From positions 1 to 37,791 of the forward strand of contig NZ_UWPJ01000019.1 of the NCBI RefSeq assembly GCF_900606115.1: DNA of 37,791 nucleotides, in the 5' to 3' direction. How positions within the stretch are numbered: position 1 is the stretch's first letter; every line of letters starts with the position of its first letter. The stretch is from Pigmentiphaga humi. Its GTDB lineage: Bacteria; Pseudomonadota; Gammaproteobacteria; Burkholderiales; Burkholderiaceae_B. The notes below the pieces were generated by a model. That model was not told where the DNA came from. It ran no database searches and saw only the letters and a list, made by a program, of their open reading frames with translations. Position numbers and translations under genes: made by a program. This document shows, in pieces, positions 16,075 to 21,276 of the stretch.

Positions 16075-16644
16075 TCAAGCTGCCGGCTTGCGCCGGCGCT
16101 TGAGCGCCAGCATGGTGCCGCGGCAGGAGGGCTTGCCGCACAGGCACTGGTAGTTCTTCTTGAGCGTGGGGGTCAGGCGCTCGTCGATGATCAGGCCGTA
16201 GTCGTAGTTCAGTTCCTCGCCGCGCTCGATGGGCTGCAGCGTGGCGATGAAGACGCGGCCGTCGTCGGTTTCCTCGGCTTCGCAATTGGGTTCGCAGCAG
16301 TGGTTGATCCAGCGCGCGTCGTTGCCGTGGCTGCCGCCGTCGATGACCTTGCCGCCGTCCAGCGCGAAGAAAAAGGTGTGGTACGGGTCGTCCGGGTTTA
16401 CCGGATGGCGCCGGTCCGCCTCCTTGGCGCTGATGATCTCGCCGGTGTACTCCATGATGCGCGTCCCGGCGGGAATCTTGCGCGCGGCGAATACTCCCGT
16501 TCCGTGCACCCGCGAACGCCGCACGATGTGCCAGGCCTTGCCGTTGGGAGCGGGATCGGCCTCGACGCGCATCGCTTGGGCGGGCGGCTCGGCAATGGAG
16601 GACTTGCGCGCCCGGCTGGGCGCCTTCTTGGATTCGGCGGTCAT
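16075..16644 (-). CDS. SET-domain protein lysine methyltransferase
   Basis: 189 residues with a complete SET domain. The SAM-binding HGTGVFAARKIPAGTRIMEYTGEII covers 47-71, NHCCEPN 114-120 is the NHSxxPN motif, and ELNYDYG 144-150 holds the catalytic tyrosine. A post-SET-like cysteine cluster follows (CLCGKPSCRG: C167, C169, C174), which with a cysteine of the NHCCEPNC segment could bind zinc. The N-terminal 20 residues are Lys/Arg/Ser-rich. Family knowledge: SET enzymes methylate lysines; the chlamydial member acts on histone-like Hc1. The ATG lies 8 bases after the topB stop and lacks a clear ribosome site, so translation is probably coupled to topB. Confidence 0.9.
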   Translation of the reverse strand: MTAESKKAPSRARKSSIAEPPAQAMRVEADPAPNGKAWHIVRRSRVHGTGVFAARKIPAGTRIMEYTGEIISAKEADRRHPVNPDDPYHTFFFALDGGKVIDGGSHGNDARWINHCCEPNCEAEETDDGRVFIATLQPIERGEELNYDYGLIIDERLTPTLKKNYQCLCGKPSCRGTMLALKRRRKPAA

Positions 16645-16652
16645 GGGGCGGC

Positions 16653-19313
16653 TCAGGTCGTGGTCTTGGCTGCGGCCTTTCTGGCCGTTTTTTTAGCCGG
16701 GGCTTTCTTGGCCGCAGTCTTGGCCGGGGCTTTTTTGGCTGCGGCTTTCTTGGCGGGCGCCTTCTTGGCTGCAGCCTTTTTGGCCGCGGCCTTCTTCGGC
16801 GCCGGCGCCTCGGCCTCGCCTGCATCCGCCGCCTTGCGCTCGGCCGCGCTGCCGGCCGCCTTGCCGCTCTTGGCGGGGCGCGGCTCGAACTCGAAGCCGA
16901 TCTTGCCGTCCGCCTGCCTGACCAGGAAGGCCTTGAACTTGCGGTTGGTGCGGCTGGAGACGAAGTTCTGCAGCAAGTCGGTGCGGCCTTCCGACAGCAG
17001 CTTGCCCATCTGCTCGGCGGTGATCTCCTGCTGCAGGATTACCTTGCCCGAACGGAAATCGCAGCTGCGCTGCGGTCCGACCGATTTCTCGCAGACATAG
17101 CTCATGCCATGCTCGAAGACGCGCGCATGACACTTGGGGCAGGCGCCGACCGGCGTCTGGCCGGAGAAATCCACCGGTTCGCTGGATTCCTCGTCGTCCT
17201 GGCCGAAATCGAACTCGAGCTTGTATTCGTCGGTGATGCGCAGGATGGCCGAGAAGGGGCGGCCCATCTTGCTGATGAAGCCGTTGAGCGGGCCGATCTC
17301 GCGCTTGGCCAGCAGTTCCTCGACTTCCGGCAACTCGAACGTGCGGCCGCCCGGATGCTTGCTGATGGAGAAGTCGCAGGCCGTGCAGGCGTAGCGGCGG
17401 TAGTTCTCCTTCACCACGCCGCCGCATTTCGGGCAGGGCGTGGCCAGCGTGGCGTAGTCGCCCGGCACGGTGTCGCGGTCGTATTCCTTGGCGCGCTTGA
17501 CGATGACCTGGGTCATTTGCGCTATCTCGCGCATGAAGGCCTCGCGCGCCAATTGGCCGCGCTCGATCTGCGACAGCTTGTGCTCCCACTCGCCGGTCAG
17601 CTCGGGGGAAGTGAGCTCGTCCACGTCCAGGCCCCCGAGCAGCGTCATCAACTGGCGCGCCTTGGCGGTCGGCACCAGGTCGCGGCCTTCGCGGCGCAGA
17701 TAGACTTCGTTGATCAGGCCTTCGATGATGCCCGCGCGCGTGGCCGGCGTGCCCAGGCCGCGCGCCGACATGGCCTCGCGCAATTCCTCGTCGTCCACCA
17801 GCTTGCCGGCGCCTTCCATGGCCGACAGCAGCGTGGCTTCGGAATAGCGCGCCGGCGGCTTGGTGACCAGGCCCACGGCCTCGATTTCCTCGGTGCGCAC
17901 CTGCTCGCCCGCGGCGACGGGAACGAGGTTGGCGTCCTCGCCCTGGCTCTCGCGGCCGTAGATGGCCATCCAGCCCGGGTTGACCAGGACCTTGCCTTCA
18001 GTCTTGAAATGATGGCCGGCGACCTCGGTGATGCGGGTCGTGACCAGGAATTCCGCGGCGGGGAAGAACACCGCCAGGAAGCGCTTGACCACCATGTCGT
18101 ACAGCTTGGCCTCGGCTTCGCTCATCTCGCGCGGCGCCTGCAGCGTCGGGATGATGGCGAAGTGGTCCGACACCTTCTTGTTGTCGAACACGCGGCGGTT
18201 GGGCTTGACCCAGCCCTTGTCCAGGATCTGGCTGGCGAACGGCGCATAGCCGGGCCGGCCGGCCGCCAGCGTCTGCATGGTCTGGCGCACGGTGACGACG
18301 TAGTCTTCCGGCAGGTAGCGCGAATCGGTACGCGGGTAGGTCAGCGCCTTGTGGCGCTCGTACAGCGACTGCGCCAGCGCCAGCGTGGTCTTGGCCGAGT
18401 AGCCGAAGCGCGAGTTGGCCTCGCGCTGCAGCGTGGTCAGGTCGTAGAGCAGCCCGGACAACTGGGTCGAGGGTTTGGATTCCTCGGTGACGGTGCCGGT
18501 GCGGTCGCGGCAGGCCGCCACCACCGACTCGGCCGCGGCCTTGCTCCACAGGCGCGAATCGCGTTTCTCGGCGTCTTGTGGATCCTTGACGTGCTTGGGG
18601 TCGAACCAGCGGCCTTCGTACAGGCCCGCAGCGGCGACGAACTGCGCGCGCACTTCCCAGAAGTCGCGCGGCACGAACCGGCGGATGCGTTCCTCGCGCT
18701 CGGCCACGATGGCCAGCGTCGGCGTCTGCACGCGGCCCACCGGCGTCTTGAAGAAGCCGCCGTCCTTGCTGTTGAAGGCGGTCATGGCGCGCGTGCCGTT
18801 GATGCCCACCAGCCAGTCGGCCTCGGCGCGCGAGCGCGCCGCCGATTCGAGCGGCTGCAGCGCGGAGTCGCTGCGCAGGTCGGCGAACGCGTCGCGGATC
18901 GCCTGCTGCGTCATCGACTGCAGCCACAGCCGGCGGATCGGCTTGTTGGTTTTGGCGTACTGGACGATGTAGCGGAAGATCAGCTCGCCCTCGCGCCCTG
19001 CGTCGCAGGCGTTGATCAGCGCGTCGACGTCCTTGCGCTTGATCAGCCGCACCAGCAGCCGCAGCCGCTCTTCCGAGCGCTTGTCGGCCGGCCCCAGCTC
19101 GAACTCGGGCGGAATCACCGGAAGGTGCGTGAAGCTCCATTTGCCCTTGACCGGATCATTGGGGGCGACGAGCGTGAGCAGGTGCCCGATGCTCGAAGCA
19201 AGCACGTAGTCGTCGCTTTCGAAGTAATCGCCTTCGCGCTTGAATCCTCCCAGCGCGCGGGAAATATCCAGCGCGACCGACGGTTTCTCGGCGATGATCA
19301 GAGTTTTGCCCAT
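16653..19313 (-). CDS. topB: DNA topoisomerase III with histone-H1-like C-terminal tail
   Basis: 886 residues. The N-terminal Toprim domain begins MGKTLIIAEKPSVALDIS, with the acidic DAGREGELIFR motif near 105-115. The catalytic tyrosine is Y326 in ALTYPRTDSRY, close to Y328 of E. coli TopB. Two C-terminal zinc-ribbon-like units follow: CPKCGG...CTAC from 627, and CPKCHA...C from 725. The last 47 residues are repeats of KKAAAKKAPAK, a histone-H1-like DNA-binding tail that adds positive charge. Type IA topoisomerase III decatenates DNA by single-strand passage. Ribosome site GGAAG precedes the start. The SET-domain gene is directly downstream. Confidence 0.95.
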   Translation of the reverse strand: MGKTLIIAEKPSVALDISRALGGFKREGDYFESDDYVLASSIGHLLTLVAPNDPVKGKWSFTHLPVIPPEFELGPADKRSEERLRLLVRLIKRKDVDALINACDAGREGELIFRYIVQYAKTNKPIRRLWLQSMTQQAIRDAFADLRSDSALQPLESAARSRAEADWLVGINGTRAMTAFNSKDGGFFKTPVGRVQTPTLAIVAEREERIRRFVPRDFWEVRAQFVAAAGLYEGRWFDPKHVKDPQDAEKRDSRLWSKAAAESVVAACRDRTGTVTEESKPSTQLSGLLYDLTTLQREANSRFGYSAKTTLALAQSLYERHKALTYPRTDSRYLPEDYVVTVRQTMQTLAAGRPGYAPFASQILDKGWVKPNRRVFDNKKVSDHFAIIPTLQAPREMSEAEAKLYDMVVKRFLAVFFPAAEFLVTTRITEVAGHHFKTEGKVLVNPGWMAIYGRESQGEDANLVPVAAGEQVRTEEIEAVGLVTKPPARYSEATLLSAMEGAGKLVDDEELREAMSARGLGTPATRAGIIEGLINEVYLRREGRDLVPTAKARQLMTLLGGLDVDELTSPELTGEWEHKLSQIERGQLAREAFMREIAQMTQVIVKRAKEYDRDTVPGDYATLATPCPKCGGVVKENYRRYACTACDFSISKHPGGRTFELPEVEELLAKREIGPLNGFISKMGRPFSAILRITDEYKLEFDFGQDDEESSEPVDFSGQTPVGACPKCHARVFEHGMSYVCEKSVGPQRSCDFRSGKVILQQEITAEQMGKLLSEGRTDLLQNFVSSRTNRKFKAFLVRQADGKIGFEFEPRPAKSGKAAGSAAERKAADAGEAEAPAPKKAAAKKAAAKKAPAKKAAAKKAPAKTAAKKAPAKKTARKAAAKTTT

Positions 19314-19381
19314 TGACTTCCAGTAGAACGGAGCCGACGCCCGCTAATAATAAGTGCGTCAAAGCGCCGGATGATACGGGT

Positions 19382-19416
19382 GGACCTTTGTCCAGTAAAG
19401 GGGACCCATCCCCTTT
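19382..19416 (-). other. Tandem hairpins in the smg-topB spacer
   Basis: AAAGGGGA (19397-19404) pairs perfectly with TCCCCTTT (19409-19416) around a 4-base loop. A smaller hairpin GGAC/GTCC lies at 19382-19393. On the minus strand these sit between the smg stop and topB start. No T-run follows, so they may be an attenuator-like or processing structure rather than a terminator. Confidence 0.35.
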
Positions 19417-19449: not shown

Positions 19450-19908
19450 CTAATGGAGTTGTCGTGCGGTGCCGTCTTCCAGGAGCTCTTCCAGGATCAG
19501 GTTGTCGATCTCCGTTTCCTGGCTCCACAGGACCATCAGCACGATGATCTTGAGCTTTTCGAGGGGGACGGGAGCTTCGCCGAGGGCGAAGGCGCGGTCG
19601 ATGACGATTTCGCGCAGGGGGGACGACAACACGCCTGCCGACTCGAGGAAGGCAATGAAACCCACGGCTTCCGAACCGAGCTGGCGATACTCGGCATCGG
19701 CGTAGATACGACAGCCGCTGCTGGGGACGAGGGCGAGATCAACGCAACGATGAGTGGATTCGGCAAGCCCGGACAGCCAGGTCAGGGCGTCGTCGATTTC
19801 ATCGTCTTCGAAGCCGGCGGCGGCAAGTTTGCGCGCCAGCGTGTCCGGATCCGGGCACGCTTCCGGCGTGTAGTAGTTCTCGAAGAGGTAGACGAGAATG
19901 TCAAACAT
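19450..19908 (-). CDS. smg: Smg family protein (DUF494)
   Basis: 152 residues starting MFDILVYLFENYY, the invariant Smg N-terminus, with the acidic DEIDDALTWL segment and C-terminal VLWSQETEIDNLILEELL typical of the family. Smg is an acidic, mainly helical protein of unknown function that is almost always encoded beside dprA, as it is here. Seventy-two bases separate it from dprA. No clear ribosome-binding site precedes the ATG. Confidence 0.93.
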   Translation of the reverse strand: MFDILVYLFENYYTPEACPDPDTLARKLAAAGFEDDEIDDALTWLSGLAESTHRCVDLALVPSSGCRIYADAEYRQLGSEAVGFIAFLESAGVLSSPLREIVIDRAFALGEAPVPLEKLKIIVLMVLWSQETEIDNLILEELLEDGTARQLH

Positions 19909-19980: not shown

Positions 19981-21108
19981 TCATGCGTTGTGCGCGCGGC
20001 ACACTTGGTAGCGTCCTCCGTCCAGGCGCGCGACCCGGCCCTGCAGCTCCAGCGCGAGCAGGCGCGCCTGCAGAACGGGAACGGCCAGTCCGCTGCGCGC
20101 GGCCAGGGCGTCCAGGTGGATCGGGCCGTAGCCCATCGCCGCGAGCAGTCCGTCCGCGGGAACCGGCGCGGATCCCGGCTCTTCTCCGGAGCGGCCGAAG
20201 AGCCGCCGCGCGCCGTGCAGCTCGTCCAGGATGTCCTCCGCCGACTCGACCAGTGTGGCGCCCTGGCGGATCAGCGCATGGCAGCCGCGCGCCAGCGGCG
20301 AGTGGATGGAGCCGGGGATCGCGAACACCTCGCGGCCGGTCTCTGCCGCCAGCCGGGCGGTGATCAGCGAACCGCTGCGCAGGGCGGCCTCGGCCACCAG
20401 CGTGCCGCGCGCCAGGCCCGCCACCAGCCGGTTGCGGCGGGGAAACTGATGCGCCAGCGCCGGCGTGCCGAGCGGGAATTCGGACACGATGGCCCCCATG
20501 GCTTCGATCTCCTGCGCCAGGCGGCGATGGCGCGCGGGGTAGACCACGTCGGCGCCCGTCCCCACCACCGCTATCGTGCCGCCGCCGGCCGCGCCCGCCT
20601 CCAGCGCGCCTCGATGGGCGGCCGCGTCGATGCCGAGTGCCATGCCGCTGACGATGCACCAACCCTGGCGCGCCAGGTGGCGGGCGAAGGCGTGAGCGCT
20701 CGCCAGGCCGTCGGGCGTGGCGTTGCGGGCGCCGACCACGGCGATGGCCGGCCGGCTCAGCCATGCCGGGTCGCCGCACACGTAGAGCACCGGCGGCGGG
20801 TCGTGCAGGTCGCGCAGCGCCTGCGGATAGGCGCCATCGCCCAGCGTCAGCACGTGGCGGCCGGGCGCCTGCACCCATTCCAGCGCGCGTTCGACGGCTT
20901 CCCGCATCGGGGCGGACGGAGGGTCGCGCAACTGGCCGGCCAGAGGGGCGGGCAAGCGCTCGGCCAGCGCCTGCCGGGACAGGCCATAGAGCGTCGGCGG
21001 CGGGCCGATCTCGCGCAGCAGCTCGCCGGCGGTGGCGGGCCCGATGCCGGGTTCGAGCGAGAGCCGGAGCCAGGCGGACAATTCTTCCTGAGAGTGGACA
21101 AGAGGCAT
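19981..21108 (-). CDS. dprA: DNA-processing protein DprA
   Basis: 375 residues; start at ATG 21108 ([16 protein letters not shown]) preferred to 21150. An N-terminal SAM-like region (about 8-70) precedes the extended Rossmann fold with [42 protein letters not shown] and the signature [13 protein letters not shown]-terminal winged-helix (DML1-type) domain covers about 310-370. Family knowledge: DprA protects incoming single-stranded DNA and loads RecA during transformation, though it is conserved in species not known to be competent. Divergent from def. Confidence 0.95.
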
Positions 21109-21276
21109 GGCGCGCGAAGAGCAGTATCTGCGGGCCGCCATGTTAAGCATGCCGGGCGGTCGGCCGGCGCCGCCTCAGGATCGTCTTGTCCCACGGGAAA
21201 ACCGAGGGGCGGCCGCCGCTCCGCCGTGCGTCGCCGCGCAGGCGGAACCGGCTGGCAAGCTGTGTTATCTTGCCTC

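Follow-up and report, generated by a model that had tools for sequence, protein, structure and literature searches.

In the 37,791-nucleotide stretch of Pigmentiphaga humi contig NZ_UWPJ01000019.1 analyzed here (the window), topB, which encodes a DNA topoisomerase III with a lysine-rich C-terminal tail, is followed on the minus strand by a gene for a SET-domain protein-lysine methyltransferase (Table 1). We propose that the SET protein is a housekeeping enzyme with an MLL-like fold whose targets are lysine-rich proteins of the bacterium's own DNA topology and nucleoid, and that the TopB tail is its best candidate substrate in the window's family. We hold this proposal tentatively, at a probability of roughly 45%. 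It is carried by the gene pair itself, the intact motifs and predicted fold of the SET protein, the repeated linkage of SET to topB, and covariation of SET with the tail within the family. A sequence-only reading of the window had proposed methylation of the tail by the adjacent enzyme. That interpretation is plausible in a narrower form, strongest in the window's family rather than general, and perhaps part of a broader connection between SET enzymes and DNA topology.

TopB scored 1549 bits against NF006032, the NCBIfam equivalog for DNA topoisomerase III (cutoff, 1058 bits). Its last 47 residues (16656 to 16796; KKAAAKKAAAKKAPAKK...KTTT) form the Lys/Ala/Pro tail, with 17 lysines, that the sequence-only reading had described. 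The tail is H1-like in composition only: its match to the H1-like model NF038053 is weak (24.2 bits; cutoff, 80), and Pfam found no SWIB domain on this TopB that would make it a SWIB-topoisomerase fusion. The DNA that encodes the tail forms an imperfect tandem repeat with 15- and 30-base periods (71 to 75% matches). We do not take it for a recent DNA repeat only, because both lysine codons are used (AAG 9 times and AAA 7 times among the 16 lysines of the last 46 residues) and because 12 to 34 tail lysines occur across 59 family loci with a readable TopB end. A search of the genome with the tail matched TopB alone, a result of little weight since such low-complexity matches score poorly.

The complete SET gene begins 8 bases past the topB stop codon, exactly as the sequence-only reading had placed it, and the spacer (GCCGCCCC) holds no clear ribosome site, which suggests translational coupling of the two genes. 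A single sigma-70-like match was found between 15900 and 19950, where 0.1 was expected; lying upstream of topB, it is compatible with, though no proof of, co-transcription. The tail and the SET protein are probably encoded in one transcript. The SET protein (P0001) matched Pfam SET (PF00856) with 84.5 bits (cutoff, 22.4), the only such match in the whole genome. Thirteen residues were invariant in an alignment of 44 SET sequences (H47, G48, G50, Y66, H89, T90, F93, N114, H115, C117, C121, E144, and Y149), and the window's protein has the GxG, NHxC, catalytic tyrosine, and post-SET cysteine elements. We take HGTG to be the S-adenosylmethionine-binding GxG motif, NHCC the pseudoknot motif, and ELNYDY the catalytic tyrosine region; C167, C169, and C174 presumably bind zinc together with C121. 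An AlphaFold2 model built from the 44 sequences reached a mean predicted local distance difference test score (pLDDT) of 84.1, with low confidence at the basic N terminus (an earlier model based on 10 sequences was of poor quality; pLDDT 40.4). With this model, Foldseek ranked the SET domains of MLL3, MLL4, and MLL1 at the top (target template modeling scores of 0.63 to 0.79 in the first five rows), and the top phmmer match was KMT2A (E = 9.3e-26). Because 13 residues are invariant and the predicted fold is MLL-like, the enzyme looks intact, and we predict that it is a lysine methyltransferase.

Table 1. Features of the topB-SET region (window coordinates)
Feature	Position	Strand	Remarks
SET-domain protein-lysine methyltransferase gene (P0001)	16075-16644	minus	189 residues; Pfam SET match
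Post-SET cysteines C167, C169, C174	16123-16146	minus	nearly invariant, 44-sequence alignment
ELNYDY, SET residues E144-Y149	16198-16215	minus	E144 and Y149 invariant, Y147 nearly, 44 sequences
NHCC, SET residues N114-C117	16294-16305	minus	N114, H115, C117 invariant, 44 sequences
HGTG, SET residues H47-G50	16495-16506	minus	H47, G48, G50 invariant, 44 sequences
Basic N terminus of SET (MTAESKKAPSRARKSS)	16597-16644	minus	low model confidence
8-base spacer, topB stop TGA to SET start ATG	16645-16652	minus	no clear purine-rich ribosome site
Lys/Ala/Pro (H1-like) TopB tail plus stop codon	16653-16796	minus	sequence; 47 residues, 17 lysines
topB, DNA topoisomerase III	16653-19313	minus	886 residues; Toprim, type IA topoisomerase core, two Toprim_Crpt stretches
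Sigma-70-like promoter match upstream of topB	19371-19399	minus	consensus match only
smg-type DUF494 gene, upstream neighbor of topB	19450-19908	minus	Pfam
dprA, upstream neighbor	19981-21150	minus	Pfam

The basic N terminus of the window's SET protein is a possible self-methylation or DNA-binding segment. Lys-rich, H1-like N termini were also observed on the SET proteins of L247 and L248 (f12), L249 (f46), L036 (f19), and L259 (f38), where the start was set at the first in-range methionine (none was in range in L248); they are candidates for the same two roles. A phage origin of SET is without support, since P0001 had no match in phages or PHROGs. On plasmids, 49 PLSDB records matched P0001, 29 from Paraburkholderia and 12 from Caballeronia, with 48.5 to 55.0% identity among the 20 matches listed.

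We then asked how far the gene pair extends beyond the window. SET was present in all 11 genomes of the genus, and topB and SET were directly adjacent in 8 of them, with a gap of 8 bp in the window and of 10 to 13 bp in the other seven; because of these seven, the adjacency is more than chance. The nearest candidate SET start in the remaining three lay 146 bp (G010) or about 1.6 to 1.8 kb (G006 and G001) downstream. Across the order, P0001 matched 70 of 300 genomes at an E value of 1e-10. The 63 matching at 1e-20 or better were scored SET positive, and the seven weak ones (G034, G077, G082, G104, G164, G182, and G262) SET negative. A topB match at 1e-80 was obtained for 150 of the 300 genomes (six matches were distant, with E of about 1e-83 to 1e-90), namely, in 59 of 63 SET-positive versus 91 of 237 other genomes, a comparison confounded by descent. 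Among the 59 order genomes with both a strong SET match and topB, measuring to the TopB core match, the two genes shared a contig in 32; they lay within 13 kb in 23 and within 600 bp in 13. Linkage within 600 bp has an expected chance of about 0.03% per 4.5-Mb genome, although the lineages are not independent. The 13 close pairs fall into three lineages that differ in orientation: divergent in f49 (8 genomes), convergent in f5 (4 genomes), and co-directional in the window (1 genome).

In f49, 7 of the 8 genomes (loci L038, L039, L040, L041, L042, L043, and L044) have a TopB with a lysine-rich linker and a SWIB domain at its C-terminal end, as judged from Pfam on L038 and L044 and from own-frame SWIB matches in G061, G105, G145, G183, G216, G246, and G306. 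Locus L242 of clade f5 reads dnaA-dnaN-gyrB-SET, with topB and dprA on the opposite strand; the order in L243 resembles it (the predicted open reading frame at the expected dnaN position is an antisense frame), and L050 of genus g39 also reads dnaA-dnaN-gyrB-SET. Pfam confirmed GyrB in L242 and L050, DnaN in L242, and DnaA in L050. SET directly follows gyrB in all three (L242:3846-6785, L243:3806-6848, and L050:10728-13724), and topB converges from the other side in L242 and L243, so that in these two f5 genomes SET sits between gyrB and topB, the latter 3 bp (L242) or 98 bp (L243) away. Because SET follows gyrB in these three loci, it keeps company with topoisomerase genes and not with topB alone.

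The same neighborhoods bear on an alternative without any functional link, in which SET is an ancient gene of the replication-origin region, common descent keeps it close to topB and gyrB, and the tail of TopB is a basic DNA-binding extension of an ordinary kind, favored in genomes rich in guanine and cytosine (GC). The position of SET after gyrB, within the dnaA-dnaN-gyrB cluster in L242 and L050, agrees with such an origin. So does looser spacing elsewhere: in Achromobacter loci with a visible topB, SET lies about 4 to 7 kb downstream, and topB was visible in the flank (up to 8 kb) in just 2 of 16 Bordetella loci. TopB tail length, moreover, follows base composition, and a basic C terminus is also described for Escherichia coli Top3 (PMC9369019). 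Passive descent alone is hard to reconcile with three orientations at less than 600 bp. The lysine counts of the independent family pairs given below also speak against this explanation, which we regard as unlikely.

Some loci show further arrangements. The gene order dprA-smg-topB-SET recurs in L160 to L164, topB and SET are separated by a panB-type gene in L188, L219, L222, and L232 (Pfam on L188 only), and SET has other neighbors in the loci sampled from f12, f46, f3, f18, and the large f31 genomes. Genus genomes G002, G003, G008, and G009 contain extra divergent TopB copies (32 to 34% identity), perhaps on mobile elements. TopB proteins of f22 and f43 without strong SET (L105, L136, L146, L110, L121, and L140) show an additional GRYGPYV-containing repeat at the C terminus.

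Covariation of the tail with SET was clearest within the window's family. The comparison covered 30 genomes of the family, made up of 21 of its 33 SET-negative members and 9 SET-positive members from g144 and g167, two genera in which both states occur. All 9 SET-positive genomes had 6 to 21 tail lysines, whereas 9 of the 21 SET-negative genomes had at most 2 and the other 12 had 5 to 15. In g167, the tails of four SET-positive genomes measured 21 to 44 residues versus 0, 0, and 5 residues in three SET-negative genomes. The SET-negative tails of g144 stay long (72 to 78 residues, 12 to 14 lysines, and 0 to 2 KK pairs), and its five SET-positive tails measured 46 to 80 residues with 14 to 21 lysines and 3 to 9 KK pairs. 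The SET-negative draft G394 (550 contigs) retains a classic tail, and a missing contig may explain the absence of SET there. In independent pairs inside the family (f1), the SET-positive member was richer in lysines in 6 of 6 (P = 0.031; differences of 5, 2, 2, 12, 12, and 12). We read the covariation as real within the window's family and the evidence beyond it as weak.

At the level of the order, we compared 59 SET-positive genomes with 72 of the 91 SET-negative topB genomes; one SET-negative genome was dropped because its topB ran into a contig end, and ten genomes of the window's genus were excluded. The median tail was 54 residues with 10 lysines in the 59 SET-positive genomes versus 22 residues with 5 lysines in the 71 SET-negative genomes (lysines, Mann-Whitney P = 1.4e-4, not corrected for descent). 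Within the nine families holding both states, SET-positive genomes averaged 3.6 more lysines (permutation P = 0.011), and lysine density did not differ between the two states. As a control for descent, 23 nonoverlapping SET-positive/SET-negative pairs were drawn from a tree of 220 TopB cores, which is coarse (about 135 residues). Lysines were higher in the SET-positive member in 16 pairs, lower in 6, and tied in 1 (sign P = 0.052; Wilcoxon P = 0.017), and the count of KKA, KKT, KTA, and TKT motifs was higher in 15, lower in 1, and tied in 7 (P = 0.0005). With locus GC as a covariate, the contrast for lysines not followed by proline gave P = 0.011. Two simpler correlates were set aside. Tail length alone did not differ (independent pairs 14:9, P = 0.40; contrasts, P = 0.30). 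A lysine-proline signature of SET-negative tails was considered as well; among tails with at least 5 lysines, KKPA occurs in 1 of 125 SET-positive versus 9 of 54 SET-negative tails, but the KP count failed in independent pairs (SET positive higher in 4, lower in 10; P = 0.18).

Several of these results weigh against the proposed link between SET and the tail. Within the family, 12 of the 21 SET-negative genomes retain 5 to 15 tail lysines, three of the six pairs differ by just 2 to 5 lysines, and the SET-negative genomes are often small, so that SET and the tail may both have been lost through genome reduction. The four-motif count was chosen from the same tails after inspection. Pairs from outside the family were not significant for lysines (10:6 untied, P = 0.45) and only suggestive for the motif (9:2, P = 0.065), and with the GC covariate the contrasts gave P = 0.06 for both lysines and motif. 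The linkage has its own exceptions: SET and topB lie on separate contigs in 27 of the 59 genomes and 32 kb to 3.2 Mb apart on one contig in 8, and 4 of the 63 SET-positive order genomes had no topB match in the search at 1e-80. Individual clades depart further. In clade f5, SET lies beside topB, yet none of the 4 genomes has a TopB lysine beyond core residue 822; in f9, seven SET-negative genomes have 9 to 19 tail lysines versus 3 in the sole SET-positive genome; and in f22, four SET-negative genomes carry 11 to 29. A universal rule that SET tracks the tail is therefore rejected. The sequence-only reading had itself named a SET gene conserved in genomes whose topB lacks the tail as a finding that would count against it, and f5 is such a case. 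Its view of the tail as a candidate SET substrate gained from the repeated linkage in three orientations and from the 6 of 6 family pairs, and the survey of adjacency against tail that it called for yields no simple rule.

A different substrate is also conceivable, above all an H1-like protein of the BpH1/Hc2 type encoded elsewhere in the genome, with the adjacency to topB secondary. The P. humi genome does encode an H1-like protein above the family cutoff (121.5 bits versus 80; G000:C11:113438-114001). A small SWIB protein gene lies on the same contig, about 71 kb away (G000:C11:184911-185129). H1-like matches occurred in 5 of 9 SET-positive versus 5 of 21 SET-negative genomes of the 30-genome family sample and, in g144, in 5 of 5 SET-positive (one weak) versus 1 of 3 SET-negative genomes (weak). 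Against this, all four SET-positive g167 genomes lack an H1-like match and keep the TopB tail. Co-occurrence of SET with H1-like matches across the order (42 of 63 versus 90 of 237; confounded by descent) is looser than that with topB given above, and TopB tails or SET N termini account for some of the weaker H1-like matches; strong matches (E of about 2e-15 or better) were found in 17 of 63 SET-positive versus 30 of 237 other genomes. The chlamydial precedent, on which the sequence-only reading had leaned, is mixed: a chlamydial SET protein is reported to methylate the H1-like protein Hc1 (PMC3980110), NUE is described as failing to do so (PMC2904774), and the published Hc1 tests disagree (PMC2904774, PMC6426960). 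We consider another lysine-rich DNA-binding protein as the main substrate a somewhat doubtful alternative.

Related SET proteins have been treated as host-directed effectors (nucleomodulins). One review lists Bordetella bronchiseptica and Burkholderia thailandensis among the bacteria with nucleolar effectors of the LegAS4-like kind (PMC3980110). Methylation of host histone H3 at lysine 4 is described for the B. thailandensis protein BtSET (PMC3980110, PMC7819608), which is also described in PMC10117894. All 44 aligned SET relatives matched a LegAS4 model (best E, 4.8e-15), and the predicted fold of the window's protein, closest to MLL-type SET domains, would suit such a role. The match is weak, P0001 scoring 40.3 bits, in the SET region only, against a cutoff of 550 for the LegAS4/AnkI equivalog NF043024. 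SET was found in 196 of 229 genomes of the window's family, with a single match each among the rows listed. Because the gene is this common, a role mainly as an effector is unlikely, and we rate it as very improbable. Related SET loci include those of Jezberella, Zwartia, Sheuella, and Pollutimonas, genera of environmental habit, and the neighbors observed for SET, in a survey not aimed at secretion genes, include topB, gyrB, panB, and genes of metabolism. Bordetella is, we take it, a member of the window's family. Since the family gene is common and present as one match each in the genomes listed, the B. bronchiseptica SET protein, known here from its description in a review, may be an orthologue of the window's SET protein. 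A dual role, as host effector and in the cell itself, is possible. BtSET and the LegAS4-like proteins thus resemble the window's protein as SET proteins from the same order; the window's gene differs in being encoded with topB and kept in most of its family.

Returning to the proposal that SET acts on TopB, a mechanism can be sketched from actinobacterial TopA of Streptomyces and Mycobacterium, which likewise bears H1-like lysine repeats at the C terminus of a type IA topoisomerase. These repeats are described as increasing processivity, and it has been proposed that their modification exerts control (PMC7398561). By the same logic, the tail should keep TopB bound to DNA. While unmethylated, it would tether the enzyme through charge, as the repeats do in TopA; the co-encoded SET protein would methylate tail lysines, and methylation would either alter the tethering or create a docking mark for a partner. 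The systems differ in that acetylation is discussed for TopA, the word methylation being absent from the text of that paper (PMC7398561), whereas here a lysine methyltransferase gene adjoins topB. BpH1 and Hc2-type H1 proteins share short lysine-rich repeats with the TopB tail, which differs from them as an extension of an enzyme that scores below the H1-like family cutoff. Chlamydiae offer another parallel, a SET enzyme (cpnSET/NUE) in a bacterium that also has Hc1, SWIB proteins, and a TopA-SWIB fusion, the last resembling the SWIB-bearing topoisomerase beside SET in 7 of 8 f49 genomes; here, in contrast, the topoisomerase is TopB rather than TopA, the genes are directly linked, and the candidate substrate tail is on the topoisomerase itself.

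We suggest, as a tentative possibility, a bacterial chromatin-like module in which SET writes methyl marks on H1-like lysine tails of the DNA-topology machinery. The tail would be carried by TopB in the window's family, by a TopB-SWIB fusion in f49, and by SET itself in sampled members of f12, f46, f19, and f38, and SWIB proteins would often be partners. SWIB matches were found in 52 of 63 SET-positive versus 60 of 237 other order genomes, a comparison confounded by descent. Work in such a module would then be what these enzymes, so far known mostly from research on host histones, natively do. Within the open-access literature, no paper linking a bacterial SET methyltransferase with topoisomerase or SWIB was found by title or start of abstract among the matches listed, and none was found on a lysine-rich topoisomerase III C terminus in Burkholderia.

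Most discussion of bacterial SET enzymes treats them as proteins injected to modify host histones, yet a SET gene is kept by most genomes of the window's family. The repeated linkage to topoisomerase genes, together with partial coevolution with an H1-like tail, offers a concrete and cheap test of the enzyme's role in its own cell. Should TopB prove to be methylated, control of bacterial DNA topology would extend from acetylation to lysine methylation, and the effector labels given to orthologues in pathogens would have to be reconsidered.

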